DNA from: Campylobacteraceae bacterium
GTDB taxonomy: Bacteria; Campylobacterota; Campylobacteria; Campylobacterales; Sulfurovaceae
Reading direction: 5' to 3'
Length of the DNA stretch: 11,797 nt
Assembly (NCBI GenBank): GCA_027002665.1
Contig: JALWZK010000283.1
Coordinates: forward strand, 1-11,797
Part shown: positions 3 through 7,716 of the stretch, in pieces
Layout: the number at the start of each line of letters is the position of its first letter
How positions within the stretch are numbered: the stretch's first letter is position 1
Notes under the pieces: generated by a model
Databases searched by the model: none
What the model was told of the DNA's origin: nothing
The model's input: only the letters and a program-made list of their open reading frames with translations
Translations under genes and position numbers: made by a program

Positions 3-140
3 ATTAGCCCATATATAAAAATAGTAATTCCTAAAAAGGTAAAAGAGGCTTATAGGGTAGCTAAGATTCCACCTAAGATTAGAGGATATTGCTATCAAGA
101 GAATCTAACTAAACTCCCCCATAAAAATCTTTCTTTTTAA
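3..140 (+). CDS. Possible C-terminal end of a plus-strand gene, cut by the window edge
   Basis: An open frame enters from the left edge and runs 45 codons to a TAA at 138-140. The peptide is rich in Lys and Pro (for example IPKKVKEAYRVAKIPPKIRGY) and ends in HKNLSF, which reads like a cytoplasmic protein tail. It would converge with napD and overlap its last 32 nt tail to tail. I do not recognise the family. An opposite-strand frame over about 1-108 is also open, with an aromatic-rich translation, so this could be chance in AT-rich DNA. No terminator hairpin for napD or for this gene is visible here. Confidence 0.3.
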   Translation: MSPYIKIVIPKKVKEAYRVAKIPPKIRGYCYQENLTKLPHKNLSF

Positions 141-474
141 GGTCTCCATGATAGACAACTTTATCTACATCAACATCTTTTTTGGTTAAAATTTCAGGAA
201 CAGGATTACTCTCATTTAAATTTTTTATCTCTTCATCTAACTGCTCCTCTTGATATGTCATCATCATATCGGCTGTAATGACAGTTGGAAGTTGTTGAAT
301 TTTTACAAGTTTTTTAATCTCATCTTCAACAGTTTCACCCTCTATTGTCACAATAATTTTCCCTTTTGTCTTATCGCTAAAGTGATAATCTACAAAATCT
401 GCATTTTTAAAATACTCTATTAACTCGTCAATATGTTTGGGTAGTGCTTGAACTACAATACTTGATATATTCAT
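109..474 (-). CDS. napD: NapD, chaperone for the NapA Tat signal peptide
   Basis: This is a 121-residue cytoplasmic protein of the NapD family, which binds the twin-arginine signal of NapA and delays export until cofactor insertion is complete. The family pattern is visible: N-terminal ISSIVVQALP, a central GKIIVTIEGE strand at about residues 38-47, and TVITADMMMTYQ at about 64-75. Escherichia coli NapD is about 87 residues, so roughly 35 residues (VPEILTKKD onward, ending DFYGGV) are a charged C-terminal extension. The ATG is preceded by a good AGGAG Shine-Dalgarno, which overlaps the napL stop codon; the gap to napL is 9 nt. It is the last gene of the nap operon. The identification rests on sequence pattern and operon position together. 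Confidence 0.92.
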   Translation of the reverse strand: MNISSIVVQALPKHIDELIEYFKNADFVDYHFSDKTKGKIIVTIEGETVEDEIKKLVKIQQLPTVITADMMMTYQEEQLDEEIKNLNESNPVPEILTKKDVDVDKVVYHGDLKKKDFYGGV

Positions 475-483
475 ATTTCACTC

Positions 484-1440
484 CTATTTTTGATTTAAAT
501 CCCATACCATAATACTACTATCATCGCTTGCTGAGAAAATTCTATTCTCATCTCGGAAAATAATCACATTTAGTGTGCTTTTCTGCCCTTTAAGTATAGC
601 TATTTTGGATTTAGTTGAACTATTATAGATATGGATATTATTCTGTTCGTCCATAGCAAAAGCCACTTTTTTAGCACTTGGACTAAGAGCAGTAGAATAG
701 ATTAAAAAATTCCCTGCAATATAGGTTCCCTTACCGGTAGCCACATTATAGATAGAGCCTCTTCTATCCTGTCCTGCCCCACTCACTATTCCATTTTTAA
801 AATCAACTCTATAGACATTATCGACATTTTGACCTTTAAGCACCTTTATAACCTTACCTGTTTGGACATCAACAACGGTTAGGACACCACTTTCACAGGA
901 GAAGACCACTTGAGTTTTATCTCTATTTAGTGCAAAATCCGAAAATTTAGATTCACTAAGTTGAACTCTATAACTCTCTTTTTTACTATTTAAATCTAAA
1001 AGTGACACCTCATTACTTAAATAACCCAATAGAATATGCTCCTTATCTATAAATCGAGCCTTAATTAGAGCCTTTTTATCCTCAGCAGAGAGTATCTGTG
1101 TAAGATTTTTATCATAGATATATAGGTCTGAATATCCATTTTTGCCACTATCGCTAAGAAGTAGATACCTGTTGCCTATCTTATCGACACTCATAACCCG
1201 AGCTGGTATCTCATCTCCCATAAAATCTTTTACATTGGGAATTGAGATGTTTTTTATATTCTGTCTTGTGGTAATATCTTTTATCTCTATATGACCCATA
1301 TCGGTAGCAATAACAAGTATATTGTCTCTTAGCACCATATCTCTAACTGTGCCATTTACCTCAATGCTATCTATCGGTTTGATAATTGGAACAGCCCATA
1401 TAATAGTAGTCCAAAATAGTAGAAAAAATATATATCTCAT
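484..1440 (-). CDS. napL: NapL, periplasmic beta-propeller accessory protein of nitrate reductase
   Basis: The protein has 318 residues. It begins with a Sec-type signal peptide (MRYIFFLLFWTTIIWA, cleavage expected near residue 16), so the mature protein should be periplasmic. The body shows repeated WD40-like beta-propeller blades of about 40 residues, with strands such as VVFSCESGVLTVVDVQTGKV and a C-terminal blade RIFSASDDSSIMVWDLNQK. NapL is characteristic of Campylobacterota nap operons; its exact biochemical role is not settled, and it is generally treated as an accessory factor for full NapA activity. Its ATG overlaps the stop of the upstream acidic ORF by 4 nt (ATGA), indicating translational coupling. 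No Cys pairs, haem sites or metal motifs are seen. The assignment depends strongly on operon position and the propeller fold. Confidence 0.88.
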   Translation of the reverse strand: MRYIFFLLFWTTIIWAVPIIKPIDSIEVNGTVRDMVLRDNILVIATDMGHIEIKDITTRQNIKNISIPNVKDFMGDEIPARVMSVDKIGNRYLLLSDSGKNGYSDLYIYDKNLTQILSAEDKKALIKARFIDKEHILLGYLSNEVSLLDLNSKKESYRVQLSESKFSDFALNRDKTQVVFSCESGVLTVVDVQTGKVIKVLKGQNVDNVYRVDFKNGIVSGAGQDRRGSIYNVATGKGTYIAGNFLIYSTALSPSAKKVAFAMDEQNNIHIYNSSTKSKIAILKGQKSTLNVIIFRDENRIFSASDDSSIMVWDLNQK

Positions 1441-1778
1441 GATAAAATACCTTCAATTTGATTTAATATTAACTCCTCTATCTCCTCTGTTGAGAGGTCG
1501 CTTTTAACTCCATAGAGGTCAATTTCACTAACCATAAAATTCTCGAAAGAGCTATTTTCACTCAATTTTGCAATCAGCTCTTCCATCTTATCTCCCCCTA
1601 AGGCCTCTTGTGTAAGTTCTGAAATATAGATAATAAAGTTATACTCATCAACATCAAACTCAAACTCTTCCGAATCGTAATCTACATAGTTCTCATCAAC
1701 GCTAAGCAGATGTCTTAACTCTATCTCTTTATCCTCTAATCTATCAAAAAGTTTCGGATATTTCTGTTGTAGTCTCAC
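1437..1778 (-). CDS. Unassigned acidic 113-residue protein within the nap operon
   Basis: This small protein is strongly acidic: about 30 Asp/Glu against 9 Lys/Arg in 113 residues, with the run SEEFEFDVDEY near residues 36-46. It has no signal peptide, no membrane segment and no Cys, so it should be a soluble cytoplasmic protein, probably mostly helical. It starts with GTG, not ATG. The GTG overlaps the napF stop as GTGA, and a good GAGGAG Shine-Dalgarno lies 6 nt upstream inside napF. Its own stop overlaps the napL start as ATGA. That tight coupling on both sides makes it a real gene of the operon. I do not recognise the family. An accessory or maturation role for a Nap component, perhaps for the neighbouring NapF, is inference from position only. 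Confidence 0.85.
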   Translation of the reverse strand: MRLQQKYPKLFDRLEDKEIELRHLLSVDENYVDYDSEEFEFDVDEYNFIIYISELTQEALGGDKMEELIAKLSENSSFENFMVSEIDLYGVKSDLSTEEIEELILNQIEGILS

Positions 1779-2296
1779 TTACTCTCCTCTTGAGGTATTA
1801 CTATGTAACTAATTGCCTCTGTAGGGCATCTTGAGATACAAAATCCACACGCTGAACAACTCTCATTATCTATAATAGGATTCAACATACCATTAAACAG
1901 AATTGCATCATCTATACATGGCTCTTTACATGAGTAACATATAACTCCTTGGTGGGCTACACAACTCTCTATAGAGATTTGAAATATGGCATTTAAATAT
2001 GGACTACTATTAGTTAAGGATAAAACATCTTTTTCACATGCGATAGCACACTCATCACAAAAGGTGCAACCATTTTTATCAAAAGTTAAAGTAGGAGTTT
2101 TTGTATTTTCATCAATATAGATAATCTTTTCATCACAAGAAGTGACACAAGCTTGACTTTCACAACTTGGACACTCACTCTGAAAAAGAGATTCACTTTT
2201 CCCATAGGGGGGACGAATCAGAAAAGGAGTCTCCTCCTCTTCCGATTGTCGTAAAGGTTTAGTAATGGATTTAAAAAAACCTCTTCTACTTACCAC
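1775..2296 (-). CDS. napF: NapF, cytoplasmic ferredoxin-type iron-sulfur protein
   Basis: This 173-residue protein carries four Cys quartets: C42/45/50/54, C77/80/83/87, C112/120/123/127 and C147/150/153/157, matching the four [4Fe-4S] sites of the NapF family. NapF is known from other bacteria as a cytoplasmic protein that interacts with NapA and is thought to help its maturation. The N-terminus SRRGFFKS fits the twin-arginine consensus, but a charged stretch (LRQSEEEETP) follows and not a hydrophobic helix, so export is unlikely. The start is GTG at 2296, sharing one base with the napB stop (TAGTG), and only a weak Shine-Dalgarno precedes it, so translation is probably coupled to napB. It ends inside the GTG of the next ORF. 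Presence of napF separates this operon from the typical Campylobacter arrangement. Confidence 0.9.
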   Translation of the reverse strand: MVSRRGFFKSITKPLRQSEEEETPFLIRPPYGKSESLFQSECPSCESQACVTSCDEKIIYIDENTKTPTLTFDKNGCTFCDECAIACEKDVLSLTNSSPYLNAIFQISIESCVAHQGVICYSCKEPCIDDAILFNGMLNPIIDNESCSACGFCISRCPTEAISYIVIPQEESK

Positions 2297-3246
2297 TACT
2301 CTACACCATCATTCATCATATCAGCAAGATTGGAGTGTGATTTTAAATCACCTGTCAATCCATCTGGCTTAAAGGTATTTCCCACTAAGGTTTGAACATT
2401 TGCTTGAGGGGCATGACACTGTGAACAGTTAAATCTACCCGGATAGAGATGGTCTAATTTTTTTACTGTTGCTAACTTAATATCACCAACATTTCCAATA
2501 TCACCTTTTGGTCCAACTTTGTGACCCTCTTTAACAAACTCTCCATTTTTAAGAGTTGTCGTTGGTCTATAGTTGGTAAAGTGAGTTGCTGGAATTGGAG
2601 TTGCACCCATACTTTTTGCAACATTAGGCATATGACACCCAAGACATTTATTGTCCTTTTGAGTAATAGGTAATAGTCCTTCAACAGAGTGAGGAATCAT
2701 CGGTGGAGCATTTACAAAAGCTCTCTCAAATCTCGGAGCAGCCCCCGGAGCTGGTCTATCATATTTAACATCAGCCGGTTTTACATCTTCCTCTTTAAAG
2801 ACAGATTTTTTTCTTAAACCTAAGAGCGTCTCATCAACTTCGTTTTTATTTCCCAAATCCTCTTTTTCAAGTCTTGCTTTATCAGCTACTTTTGCATTAA
2901 TATCAATCACTTTCGGAGCAGATTTAGCTTCAGCTTTTGCAGGAGCTTTAGTAGCTCCACCACCCTTAATTGAACTAGCAATAGAGTCAATATCTGCCTC
3001 ACTTAATGGTGCTACCTGCCCTTTCATAATCCCCTTCATAGAGCCACCATAAGAGCCATCTTTATACCCTTTAAGTGCCTTTACAATCTCCTCTTTTGAC
3101 ATATCTTTTACAACCTTAGATACGCCCATAGCCTTCTTTTCAAAATTTGCTCCATGACACCCTTTACAAGCAGTTGTATTCGCACTATAGAGTGCTGAAG
3201 CAGTCAATAATGAACCCAATGCCACTATCTTAATAACTCTTGTCAT
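2296..3246 (-). CDS. napB: NapB-type nitrate reductase cytochrome fused to an N-terminal cytochrome c553-like domain (three haems)
   Basis: The protein has 316 residues, about twice the usual NapB length. The start chosen is the ATG at 3246, where AAAGGAG precedes it and a clean Sec signal follows (MTRVIKIVALGSLLTASALYSA). A further ATG frame extending into napH was not used. After the signal comes a monohaem c553-like domain at about 23-95: CKGCH at 27-31, the GYKDGSYGG region, Met70 or Met74 as likely sixth ligand, and APLSEADI. Residues 96-112 form a linker rich in Ala, Lys and Pro. The NapB domain fills about 137-316, with PPMIPHS (His186), CLGCH at 201-205, ATHF (His222) and CSQCHAPQ from 274. 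NapB passes electrons from NapGH to NapA in the periplasm; the extra haem domain may be an additional entry point for electrons. The gene lies 10 nt after napH and shares one base with napF. Confidence 0.93.
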   Translation of the reverse strand: MTRVIKIVALGSLLTASALYSANTTACKGCHGANFEKKAMGVSKVVKDMSKEEIVKALKGYKDGSYGGSMKGIMKGQVAPLSEADIDSIASSIKGGGATKAPAKAEAKSAPKVIDINAKVADKARLEKEDLGNKNEVDETLLGLRKKSVFKEEDVKPADVKYDRPAPGAAPRFERAFVNAPPMIPHSVEGLLPITQKDNKCLGCHMPNVAKSMGATPIPATHFTNYRPTTTLKNGEFVKEGHKVGPKGDIGNVGDIKLATVKKLDHLYPGRFNCSQCHAPQANVQTLVGNTFKPDGLTGDLKSHSNLADMMNDGVE

Positions 3247-3256
3247 TTTCTCTCCT

Positions 3257-4069
3257 TTAACTTTTTTTATTTTTATTAAAATCTCTAATAGCAAAACTTA
3301 GAGCATCTTCTCTACAGACATCAATACAGCGACCACAATTGGTGCACTCTCCATCTGTTACTGAGATACTCTCTCTATTAATCATTTTTAATACCTGATT
3401 TTCTGGACAGACAGCTTTACACTCCATACAGTTGGTGCATACCTCATGGTCATGTTTAACTCTAATAATACTCTTTTTCCCAATAATTGAATAGAAAGCA
3501 CCGAGAGGACAGAGATGTCCACACCAACCATTTTTAACTCCAAAAAGATCAAATAGGAAAATTGCGACTATCACTGAAATACCTGCACCAAAACCGAAGA
3601 TAATACCTCTCTGCATAATAGTTATAGGACTAAATACTTCAAAAGCGGCAATTCCTACAATAGCAGAGACAATAAGTCCCAAAACCATAATCCAATATCG
3701 AGTTCTTCGTTTTAAGAAGCGATAATTTACCTCTTCCTTATCTAATTTCAGTTTGCGTCTAAGCCAATTTGATAAATCTGTCACCATATTGATAGGACAT
3801 ACCCAACTACAAAAAGCTCTTCCACCTACTATCATATAGAAGAGTGTAATAAGTAATGCTCCTATCAGAACATCTGCCCCTATTAGAAAACCTGCAGATA
3901 GAACTTGTAGTGTAGTATAAGGGTCGGCCAGTGGAATAAAACCAAACAGTTTTGAAGAGCCGAAAGTTCCCTCTAAGATATGCCAACCATAAGCATTAGC
4001 AGAGAAGTAGAGAAACATTAACCCAATCTGTGTTACTCTTCTCAGGAGTAGATATTTAAACTTTTTCAT
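3257..4069 (-). CDS. napH: NapH, membrane iron-sulfur quinol dehydrogenase subunit
   Basis: NapH has 270 residues and at least four hydrophobic membrane spans (about 12-28, 55-82, 126-146 and 155-177). The two Cx3CP motifs of the family are present: CSWVCP at 87-92 and CGHLCP at 183-188. The soluble C-terminus holds two [4Fe-4S] quartets at C211/214/217/221 and C242/245/248/252. NapH is known to form, with NapG, a membrane complex that oxidises menaquinol and feeds NapB, replacing NapC where that gene is missing, as here. Its start overlaps the napG stop by one base (TAATG), so translation is coupled. The C-terminus is Lys-rich (FNKNKKS). Length and all cysteines match an intact family member. 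Confidence 0.96.
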   Translation of the reverse strand: MKKFKYLLLRRVTQIGLMFLYFSANAYGWHILEGTFGSSKLFGFIPLADPYTTLQVLSAGFLIGADVLIGALLITLFYMIVGGRAFCSWVCPINMVTDLSNWLRRKLKLDKEEVNYRFLKRRTRYWIMVLGLIVSAIVGIAAFEVFSPITIMQRGIIFGFGAGISVIVAIFLFDLFGVKNGWCGHLCPLGAFYSIIGKKSIIRVKHDHEVCTNCMECKAVCPENQVLKMINRESISVTDGECTNCGRCIDVCREDALSFAIRDFNKNKKS

Positions 4070-4899
4070 TAATACTCTATCCCCCTATTTAAATAATCTG
4101 ATGGTTTCTGTTTACTTCTCTCATCATGCGTCTCAATTTCATCAATTTTTCTATCTCCTACTCTCTGTTGGTCTTTTATATCCCAACCTTTTACATAGTG
4201 GTCGCCCACTTTTCCTGTGGAGTATTTTCTTGGAAGCACAAAAATAGCAGGTTTTTCAGTTACACAAGCCTTTTCACACAAACCACAACCGGTGCAGATA
4301 TCTGAGTGAACTACTGGAAGTAGAAAAGCGTGTTTTCCTGTCCGTGCATTCTTTTGATATTCAAGTGTAAGTGCCTCATCAAGTAGAGGACAGGCTCTAT
4401 AACAGGCATCACACTGTAAACCCCAATAGGCTATACACGACTCCTTATGCACTACTGCCAGACCCATCTTAGCCCTATTAATATCGAGTTCCCTCTTCTC
4501 ATTCAGGAGAGACTCCATATCTAATGCCTCTGATGGACAGACCGGCACACAAGGAATATCATCACACATATAACAGGGAACCTCTCGAGGGACAAAGAAA
4601 GGTGTTCCAATAAGTTTATGATCACCTCCCTTAGCTATTTTAAGTGTTCCTTCCCTTTGAGTTCCATCTCTATTTTTATTACTTTCACGATTCACACAAG
4701 CTTCAGCACAGAGTCCACACTTAATGCAGACATCTATAAACTGCTCTTCAGGTATCGCCCCCGGTGGTCTAAGCACCAGAGGTGAACTCTTTGCCTCATC
4801 ACAATAACCACTCCACAACAATCCACCAAGAGCTGTAAGACCTACGCTTTGAAGAGTCGTTGCCATAAACTTTCGTCTATTGTTGTTGGAGCTTTTCAT
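4069..4899 (-). CDS. napG: NapG, periplasmic four-cluster ferredoxin with Tat signal
   Basis: The protein has 276 residues. The N-terminus NNRRKFMATT followed by a hydrophobic stretch (about 13-30) is a twin-arginine signal, so the folded protein is sent to the periplasm. Four [4Fe-4S] quartets are visible: C58/61/64/68, C109/112/117/121, C155/163/166/170 and C202/205/208/212. NapG partners NapH and carries electrons from the membrane quinol site to NapB. The wide C155-C163 spacing (CIAYWGLQC) is the family's usual pattern. The start lies 3 nt after the napA stop, with an AAGG Shine-Dalgarno inside the end of napA. No key residue is missing. Confidence 0.96.
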   Translation of the reverse strand: MKSSNNNRRKFMATTLQSVGLTALGGLLWSGYCDEAKSSPLVLRPPGAIPEEQFIDVCIKCGLCAEACVNRESNKNRDGTQREGTLKIAKGGDHKLIGTPFFVPREVPCYMCDDIPCVPVCPSEALDMESLLNEKRELDINRAKMGLAVVHKESCIAYWGLQCDACYRACPLLDEALTLEYQKNARTGKHAFLLPVVHSDICTGCGLCEKACVTEKPAIFVLPRKYSTGKVGDHYVKGWDIKDQQRVGDRKIDEIETHDERSKQKPSDYLNRGIEY

Positions 4900-4902
4900 A
4901 AC

Positions 4903-7716
4903 TTATGCCTTAGTAATCTTTACAGCACACTTCTTGTAGTCTGTCTGTTTTGACATTGGACAAGTTGCATCAAGAGTTACTTTATTGATAAATACCTTCT
5001 CATCAAACCAAGGCACAAATACCAATCCTTGAGGTGGTCTATTTCTTCCTCTTGTCTCAACTCTCGCTTTTACTCTACCACGGCGAGACTCAACCCATAC
5101 AAGTTCACCTCTCTTAATACCCTTAGCTTTTGCATCTTTAGGGTGCATATAACAGAGTGCCTCTGGAACAGCACGATATAGTTCTGGAACTCTCATTGTC
5201 ATAGTTCCAGAGTGCCAATGCTCGAGAACCCTACCTGTGCATAACCAAGTATCATAGTTGCTATCAGGCATTTCTGGCGGGTCCATATATGGTCTTGCAA
5301 ATATTTTTGCCTTATTTGGTAGAGCATATTTACCAAGTTTCTTATCCGGAGCTGTTAGAGTTCCTTGAAGAATCTTCTTAGCGAGTGGACCATAGAATGC
5401 GTGGGTTGAGTTACTTCCACTCTTTTTAACCGCCTTAGCTGCATAAGGGTCATATTTAACATTAAATCTCCACTGTGTCTCTTTACCATCAACAACAGGC
5501 CACTTAAGTCCTCTTACTTTATGGTAAACTTCAAATGGAGCTAAGTCATGTCCATGTCCTCTACCGAATGAAGCATACTCTTCAAATAGATACTCATGAA
5601 CCATAAATCCATAACCCTTAAATACTTTTCCATCTCCACCTTTAACATTTCTGCTATCACCGATACATTCAGAATTATCAAAACCTTTTTGTGGGAATTT
5701 ATTAAGGTCTATTTTGTATTTTTTACCTTTATTTGCATAGAGAATTTCAAACATGGTAGTATCCTCTTTGTAACCCATCTTCTTAGCATCTTCAATTACA
5801 TTTGGAAGTTTTTTACCATTTCTAAGTGTATATTCTCCCCAAAGGTCTTTAACTGTAAATCTTTTTGAGAACTCCATCCACTGCCAAGTATCAGACATCG
5901 CTTCACCTACCGGTAAAACTTGTTGTCTCCAGTGTTGTGTTCTTCTCTCTGCATTTCCATAAGCACCCCACTTCTCATAAATCATAGCTGAAGGAAGCAC
6001 AAGGTCGGAAACCATAGCAGAAATTCCCGGATAACCATCTGAGGTTACAATAAAGTTATCCATCTCTCTTGCTGCCTTAATCCAATGTTTTGCACTGGCA
6101 CTATCTTGATACGGGTTACACACATTTACCCATGCAAACTTAACTACACCATCTTCAATATCTCTATGGATTTTCATAATGTGTTGATTACCCACTGGAT
6201 TGAGTGTTCCCGCTGGAAGTCCCCATACCTTTTCCACTTTTGCTCTATGTTTAGGGTTTTTAACCATCATATCTGCAGGGAGTCTATGACAGAATGTTCC
6301 AACCTCTCTCGCCGTTCCACAAGCTGACGGTTGTCCTGTCAATGAGAATGCTCCATTACCCGGAAGTGCCTGTTTATTGAGTAGGAAGTGAACATTATAG
6401 GAGAGAGTATTTACCCAAGTTCCTCTTGTGTGTTGGTTCATACCCATAGTCCAGAAGGAGACAACTTTTCTACCCTTTTCAATATATAAAGCCACTAAAT
6501 CTTGGAGTTTTTTCTTAAAGCTATCAAGAGACTCATTTGGGTCACCTTTTGCTATCTTAGCAACATAGTCAAGCGTAAACGGCTCTAAAGATTTTTTATA
6601 CTCCTCAAAAGAGATTTTCCAATGTTTCAATGTCCCCGGAGTATTTTTCATAGTGTCACCCTCTTTATACCCATAAGGTGCAAGTGCAGGTGCCTCCTTA
6701 GCAGATACCTTTTTCTCCATCTCCTTAGAGATTGTCTCCATCTCTTTTGCACTATATTTACCCTCTTTAAGTGACTTTTCACCTGCCCTTCTCATACCGT
6801 AACCGATATTTACAGGTCCAGCAGCAAAGACAATATTTTTCTTCACAAAGTCCCAATCGATAGCTTCTGGGTGGTTATATACAATCTCATGTGCAATATA
6901 GTTCCAAATTGCAAGGTCAGTGTTTGGAGAGAATATAATATTAAAGTCACCAAGGTCACAAGTTCTATTTGTATAGGTTTGGATATTTACAACTTTTACT
7001 CTATCAGGGTCAGAGAGTTTTCTATCGGTGACACGAGACCAAAGAATTGGGTGCATCTCTGCCATATTTGAACCCCAAGTCACAATAGTATCTGTAAGTT
7101 CAATATCATCATAACAGCCACTTGGCTCATCGATACCGAATGTTTGATAGAAACCAACAACAGCACTTGCCATACAGTGTCTAGCATTTGGGTCAATAGC
7201 ATTTGAGCGGAAACCACCCTTCATCATCTTTTGGGCAGCATACCCCTCCATAACTGTATATTGTCCAGAAGCAAATACAGCTACACCCTCAGGTCCAGAC
7301 TCTTTAAGTGCTTTCTTAGCATGCTTCTCCATCTCATCAAATGCTCTTTTCCAAGATACAGGTTTAAATTTACCTTTTTTATCAAATTCACCTTTATCAT
7401 TCATACGAAGAAGAGGAGTTTTAAGTCTATCTGCTCCATACATAATTTTTGCATTAAAATACCCTTTAATACAGTTAAGTCCTCGATTTACTGGAGCAGC
7501 AGGGTCACCTTTTACAGCAACGATTCGCCCATTTTTTGTTGCAAGCATAATTCCACAACCGGTTCCACAAAATCGACAAGCAGCTTTGTCCCATCGCCAA
7601 CCTGATTCAGCCTTCTCTGCCTTTGCTTGAGCCTCTTGGGGGACAGCAATTCCTACAGCAGAAGCTGCTGCTACAGCTGCTGAACTCTTTAAGAAATCTC
7701 TTCTATTTAAAGCCAT
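4903..7716 (-). CDS. napA: NapA, periplasmic nitrate reductase catalytic subunit
   Basis: NapA reduces nitrate to nitrite in the periplasm using a Mo-bis-MGD cofactor and one [4Fe-4S] cluster. The 937-residue protein begins with a Tat signal (NRRDFLK, then an Ala-rich helix ending PQEAQA near residue 31). The cluster ligands are C47, C50, C54 and C82, and Lys84 in CIKG is the conserved electron-transfer lysine. C181 in ARHCMASAV is the expected Mo ligand. It is longer than the Escherichia coli protein of 828 residues; part of the excess is a Lys/Glu-rich insert at about 312-358, as is usual for long Campylobacterota NapA. The ATG has a strong AGGAGG Shine-Dalgarno 7 nt upstream. It is the first gene of the operon, directly behind the FNR-like promoter. 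Confidence 0.98.

Follow-up and report, generated by a model that had tools for sequence, protein, structure and literature searches.

A three-haem NapB with a tethered c553-type domain in the nap operon of a Campylobacteraceae bacterium and its relatives

NapB, in its standard form, is the dihaem cytochrome of the Nap nitrate reductase. However, the nap operon of a Campylobacteraceae bacterium (GenBank assembly GCA_027002665.1, contig JALWZK010000283.1; the whole stretch of 11,797 nucleotides analysed here is referred to as the window) encodes a NapB with a third haem-binding motif, placed in an additional domain at its N-terminus. This locus raises the question of whether such a protein is real, how the additional domain is distributed and inherited, and from which donor it would take electrons. 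The last point touches on a matter already under discussion in Campylobacter jejuni: passages of a study of that organism (PMC6195509) present nitrate respiration as dependent on QcrABC, call the route from Qcr to NapB uncertain and state the role of NapGH as open. A napGHCAD cluster is described in a second paper (PMC12780646), in passages from which the term NapB is absent.

Here we show by computation that the gene encodes a functional-looking class I cytochrome c553 (ligands His31 and Met74), a flexible linker and a dihaem NapB, and that in the course of evolution each of the two modules has been separated, recombined and exchanged as a unit. The value of the fusion lies in opening an unsettled question of electron routing to experiment: fused NapB, its unfused close relatives and the natural hybrids between them constitute matched pairs for testing the route from Qcr to NapB. 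It also clearly exemplifies the movement of an electron-transfer domain, as a unit, within an operon.

The fused napB gene and its operon

The window contains a nap operon with the gene order napA-napG-napH-napB-napF-orf113-napL-napD (Table 1), in which the fused gene is encoded together with napA. The name napL for the beta-propeller gene is our assumption. The orf113 product has no match among Pfam or NCBIfam families, and orf113 is present in many nap operons of the window's family.

Table 1. Features of the nap operon in the window and of the fused napB gene
Feature	Position	Strand	Basis
napD, chaperone	109..474	-	PF03927, E 1.9e-20
napL-like beta-propeller	484..1440	-	WD40-type matches; position
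orf113, acidic 113-aa protein between napF and napL	1437..1778	-	sequence; position
napF-like ferredoxin	1775..2296	-	TIGR00402, 84 bits, below cut-off 102; position
fused napB	2296..3246	-	316 aa and stop: signal peptide, c553 domain, linker, dihaem NapB
NapB extension and dihaem NapB domain, residues 115-316	2299..2904	-	PF03892; 1jni/3o5a/1ogy; invariant residues
Ala/Lys/Pro linker, residues 96-114	2905..2961	-	length and sequence variable in alignment; pN/pS 0.41; low pLDDT
c553-type monohaem domain, residues 18-95, CKGCH 27-31, axial Met74	2962..3195	-	Pfam; 1c53/1dvh by sequence and fold
putative signal peptide, about residues 1-20	3187..3246	-	inferred from sequence; N-terminal helix in AlphaFold2 model
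napH	3257..4069	-	NF007013, 383 bits, cut-off 234
napG	4069..4899	-	NF007012, 345 bits, cut-off 269
napA, catalytic subunit	4903..7716	-	TIGR01706, 1341 bits, cut-off 930

The fused frame spans 951 nt from an ATG start to a TAG stop, is preceded by AAAGGAG and lies 10 nt from napH. It contains three CxxCH motifs (starting at residues 27, 201 and 274) and no further cysteine. The two motifs of the dihaem part are CLGCH (201-205) and CSQCH (274-278), and His186 and His222 of this part, which we take as the candidate distal haem ligands, are invariant in 27 aligned proteins. By Pfam search the protein belongs to the NapB family (PF03892, 114.2 bits against a cut-off of 25.1), with residues 135-316 matching the family and its fold (1jni, 3o5a, 1ogy), and residues 18-91 match both Cytochrome_CBB3 and Cytochrom_C above their cut-offs. 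The score against NF008609, the NCBIfam equivalog of standard dihaem NapB, is 68.6 bits, below the cut-off of 230, so that the protein is not filed in that equivalog; having three CxxCH motifs instead of two, it is a variant of NapB and not the standard form.

The best solved relatives by sequence are Haemophilus influenzae NapB and Desulfovibrio vulgaris c553. Alignment to the latter (1c53) is ungapped with an offset of 17, and Met74 thus coincides with the methionine that we take to be the axial haem ligand in D. vulgaris c553. This methionine is kept in all 27 aligned proteins and in all 30 fused genes compared, the window's gene included. The domain therefore has the CxxCH motif, axial Met and fold of a class I c553; it departs from that class, a free soluble protein, in sitting within the NapB chain. 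An AlphaFold2 model built from 99 sequences (pLDDT 81) agrees with the solved c553 and NapB structures and falls below pLDDT 50 at linker residues 100-108; an earlier model from 27 sequences (pLDDT 44) was not used. Across 153 pairs from the 30 fused genes, mean pN/pS is 0.19 for the c553 domain, 0.41 for the linker, 0.19 for the NapB extension and 0.15 for the dihaem part. Both haem modules are under purifying selection, and the linker is loose and drifts freely, as expected of a tether.

The first-pass annotation had described a three-haem NapB composed of signal peptide, CKGCH domain, linker and a dihaem part with CLGCH and CSQCH, which the frame, the Pfam matches and the model bear out. 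It had also held this to be a working fusion and not an artefact, and the conserved methionine, the pN/pS values and the complete chromosomes agree. With the window's genome fragmented into 343 contigs, a sequencing or assembly join of two genes might be suspected, but the same frame occurs in at least 68 of the 175 genomes of the family and in two complete chromosomes, those of Sulfurovum sp. NBC37-1 and S. lithotrophicum. This refutes a join, to which we give practically no credence.

Several nap operons of other genomes are arranged in unusual ways. The napA of G096 appears as two frames (L095, 4525-5295 and 5447-7339, plus strand), the gene being broken or the assembly in error. The cluster in G176 (L130) has napA, napB, napF and napD, with napG and napH unmatched within the stretch examined. 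G472 (L269, L270) and G482 (L271, L272) have two nap operons each with a fused NapB in both; in the second operon of G482 (L272) the stretch from napA to napB showed just a napH fragment.

The c553 block and the NapB half separate and swap as units

NapB was found in 332 of the 397 sampled genomes of the phylum. Among 84 of these that were re-queried for frame lengths, 13 have NapB frames of fused size: 12 belong to family f1 and one, G047, to family f9. G047 (L109) is the sole fused NapB outside the window's family in this set; its NapB half groups beside that of the window (support 83/89), and it has the other type of NapH (61%), a mismatch that suggests transfer between families. Within the window's family, at least 68 of the 175 genomes have a fused NapB (67 with full-length matches, plus G514) and at least 38 an unfused one (37 from the matches, G517 among them, plus G313), six are at contig edges or unclear (G484, G434, G423, G415, G536 and G401), and 63 have no NapB among the matches listed. 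The best 80 of 478 confirmed loci carry the labels Sulfurovum, Nitratifractor or another Campylobacterota-type name, apart from one Sulfurospirillum and one labelled just 'bacterium'. The unfused NapBs of our first tree set (n = 27) are 174-234 residues long, compared to 316 for the fused protein. A fixed, clade-defining trait is ruled out, as genera with fused NapBs also have unfused ones, and the window's own genus has them in G515, G534 and G517.

A tree built from the NapB half of 78 rows, 36 of them fused, requires 10 changes of the fused state, and well-supported branches force 8 of these; the rows were partly picked for oddness, with L131 and a short G415 frame left out, so these changes describe the sample and not a rate. 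A single origin followed by simple descent was rejected: in a 40-row set, from which L131 was dropped for its long branch, the 14 fused rows as one clade gave p-AU 0.019.

Individual operons reveal how the modules part. In G424, of the genus coded g2, the first 138 NapB residues are 87-88% identical to the fused NapBs P0029 and P0023, and the remainder of the operon matches g2 genomes best, namely the NapB core (86% to G238), NapG (88%), NapH (81%), NapF, orf113, NapL and NapD. G424 carries a Sulfurovum-type c553 block within the otherwise native nap operon of another genus. A simple assembly join is less likely, as a native operon on a single metagenome contig holds two breakpoints. The g2 genomes G003, G058 and G131 contain just distant c553 matches (43-47% identity), so the block was probably acquired from outside the genus.

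The converse exchange is found in G316. Its NapH and c553 are up to 87% and 80% identical, respectively, to those of fused-type operons, and NapD is also nearer the fused type (65 versus 57), whereas the dihaem half is nearer to unfused proteins (61% versus 56%), as are NapF (57 versus 52) and NapL (48 versus 41). The same swap pattern is seen in G462, G532 and G511 when compared against the window's proteins, and the NapB halves of all four, together with that of the unfused G403, form one clade (96/99). On these comparisons, the four operons appear as hybrids that retain a fused-type NapH and c553 over a foreign NapB half. That the c553 was kept while the NapB half was swapped argues that it serves Nap. 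No orf113 was found in these four chimeric operons. Two chimeric operons have a small frame between napL and napD (L265, 2648-2974, minus strand; L267, 6718-7050, plus strand), presumably thioredoxin-like, whose CEPCH is probably not a haem site.

The c553 also occurs as a free gene next to napB. In G517, of the window's genus, napH is followed by a free c553 gene of 94 residues and then by an unfused napB of foreign type that has its own signal peptide. In eight loci a free c553 gene separates napH from a fused napB (G225, G481, G486, G487, G495, G471, G458 and the record L289). In the first tree the main fused clade has the unfused NapB of G191 as its sister (94/86); that genome carries a free c553 gene about 640 nt past napD, and in G515 and G534 NapB is unfused in operons otherwise of the fused type. 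Some unfused NapBs may thus be losses of the block. As for the source of the domain, free c553 copies elsewhere in the window's and related genomes, some of which adjoin napB, are at most 79% identical to it, and a comparison over 77 columns gave weak support for any particular free paralogue. The window's own genome has a soluble c553 of 97 residues (L163, 10665-10958, plus strand) near a gene that, from its sequence, we take to be ruvA-like, and a lipoprotein-like c553 on a long Glu/Ala/Lys/Pro linker (L164, 74-598, plus strand); in G534 the two kinds stand in tandem (L254).

Taken together, related bacteria appear to have repeatedly gained, lost and exchanged the c553 add-on. Many gains and losses, and relatives that live without the domain, are also what an electron buffer or near-neutral passenger would produce, one that is kept without altering the electron route. 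We consider this quite improbable, given a pN/pS of 0.19, a haem-binding set intact in 30 of 30 genes and the retention of the c553 over swapped NapB halves.

Candidate donors of the tethered domain

The explanation that we favour, with our confidence evenly divided, sees the protein as a NapB whose tethered domain is the electron entry, with QcrC of a bc1-type menaquinol complex as the main donor. The c553 domain would dock on its donor, swing on the linker and hand electrons to the haems of NapB and from there to NapA, with which a NapB of the fused type would form a complex and which it would reduce; tethering would substitute for a diffusing c553. Were QcrC the main donor, of which we are less sure, nitrate reduction would be coupled to a proton-pumping Q cycle, and NapGH might be retained for another or parallel role. 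Since close relatives carry Nap without the c553 domain, the domain is optional and not needed for Nap as such, which counts against this explanation.

The gene content of the window's genome is compatible with Qcr. QcrA, QcrB and QcrC are all encoded (L356), and no NapC/NrfH-type protein (PF03264) was matched in this assembly, which is 86% complete; at that completeness, it has the content of a Qcr-dependent Nap of the C. jejuni or Wolinella succinogenes type. A bc1 complex, one of the donors named by the first-pass annotation, is thus plausible, the more so as nitrate respiration in C. jejuni is reported to depend on Qcr (PMC6195509). A further parallel comes from the monohaem TorB of C. jejuni, the equivalent of the fused end of E. 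coli TorC, which passages of PMC6195509 propose to accept electrons from QcrC: by analogy, though not as proof, a c553 on NapB would suit Qcr. However, the same passages favour direct transfer from QcrC to NapB in C. jejuni, with no c553 involved, and find CccB and CccC dispensable (CccA could not be tested). Moreover, a cytochrome b match is present in 154 of the 175 family genomes and Qcr also occurs in unfused ones; being near-universal, its presence does not discriminate.

The distribution of NapC/NrfH-type proteins also weighs against Qcr as the specific donor. PF03264 matches 30 of the 175 family genomes, 27 above cut-off. Twelve matches are strong (E 1.5e-11 or better), 11 of them near full length and G454 partial, with NapC and NrfH not distinguished; the remaining 18 are weak (E 1e-4 to 1e-3) and mostly short pieces in long frames. 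Nine of the 12 genomes with strong matches have a fused NapB (G485, G506, G505, G445, G539, G285, G469, G540 and G454). Such genomes speak for a tethered general entry point, in which the c553 would accept electrons from any reduced periplasmic donor (a free c553 pool, Sox, hydrogenase, formate or a NapC/NrfH-type protein) and not from Qcr specifically. Promiscuity is common among class I c553 proteins. A model also exists of the nearest solved structure, D. vulgaris c553, in complex with a hydrogenase (1e08), so the fold indicates no single donor. The window's genome, for its part, encodes SoxB besides the soluble and lipoprotein-like c553s described above. We nevertheless hold a general entry point to be possible but doubtful. 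In the mapped operons no haem-motif gene is a regular member besides the free c553 genes, and SoxB shows no association with the fusion. SoxB exceeds the cut-off in 30 of the 68 fused genomes and in 22 of the 38 unfused ones, genes split over contigs and thereby under the cut-off being scored absent (G527, G461, G480 and G540); at 95% completeness or more the counts are 14 of 30 and 15 of 24 (Fisher p 0.28, uncorrected for kinship). A tie to thiosulfate oxidation by Sox was dropped, as SoxB does not track the fusion, and the sulfur-oxidation route put forward in the first-pass annotation is not seen.

That annotation had also proposed delivery of electrons to NapA without NapGH. The window has intact copies of both napG and napH, and both proteins are encoded beside fused napB in every mapped locus whose upstream operon part is available and intact; G471 and G420, on whose early-ending contigs napH is present and napG is not reached, are uninformative on this point, as is the second operon of G482 with its napH fragment. 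Gene content thus does not indicate a bypass of NapGH. The company of NapG and NapH in these loci, and the strong conservation of NapH across many fused operons, would instead suit a domain that extends the reach from NapG to NapB and NapA, with NapG reducing the c553. Against it, fused NapB pairs with two unlike NapH groups, one about 76-87% identical to the window's NapH and the other about 58-61% (G208, G234, G047, G365, G424, G417 and G412), and we consider a reach extender improbable.

Returning to Qcr, the donor that we favour, the exchanges described above allow a further reading. The c553 block, comprising signal peptide, c553 domain and linker up to the conserved LGLRK of NapB, could be a transferable plug-in that rewires Nap to a bc1-type Qcr. 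Gained and dropped by recombination inside napB, it would toggle the enzyme between a c553-mediated, energy-conserving route and another route with NapA unchanged. We put this forward tentatively, as a rather unlikely reading.

Novelty and comparison with known systems

In the titles and abstract openings of the literature searched, with subscription papers outside its scope, we found no description of a fused or three-haem NapB; fused proteins that carry a name in their source records are called NapB or a c-type or c550-type cytochrome subunit of nitrate reductase. The constituent parts are known, and that literature appears to contain no account of the tethered form or of its plug-in behaviour. 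Of the possibility, raised at the outset, that three-haem NapB is the normal and already described form in this clade, one half is true: the form is common in the window's family, but it does not figure in what we searched. As sulfidic vents and sediments are habitats where Sulfurovum-type bacteria are prominent, the fusion bears on nitrate use there.

Three known systems invite comparison. With NapB (PF03892; 1jni, 3o5a, 1ogy) the window's protein shares family, fold, both CxxCH motifs and the candidate distal His186 and His222, and it differs by the additional N-terminal monohaem domain and linker. Compared to cytochrome c553, whether that of D. vulgaris (1c53/1dvh) or the free c553s of the same order, the window's domain is tethered to NapB instead. 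The closest parallel in arrangement is the C-terminal domain of TorC and its C. jejuni counterpart TorB, as presented in passages of PMC6195509, where a one-haem relay is likewise fused in one lineage and free in another. The protein families differ, however, and the relay there joins a quinol dehydrogenase, whereas here it joins the small subunit of the reductase.
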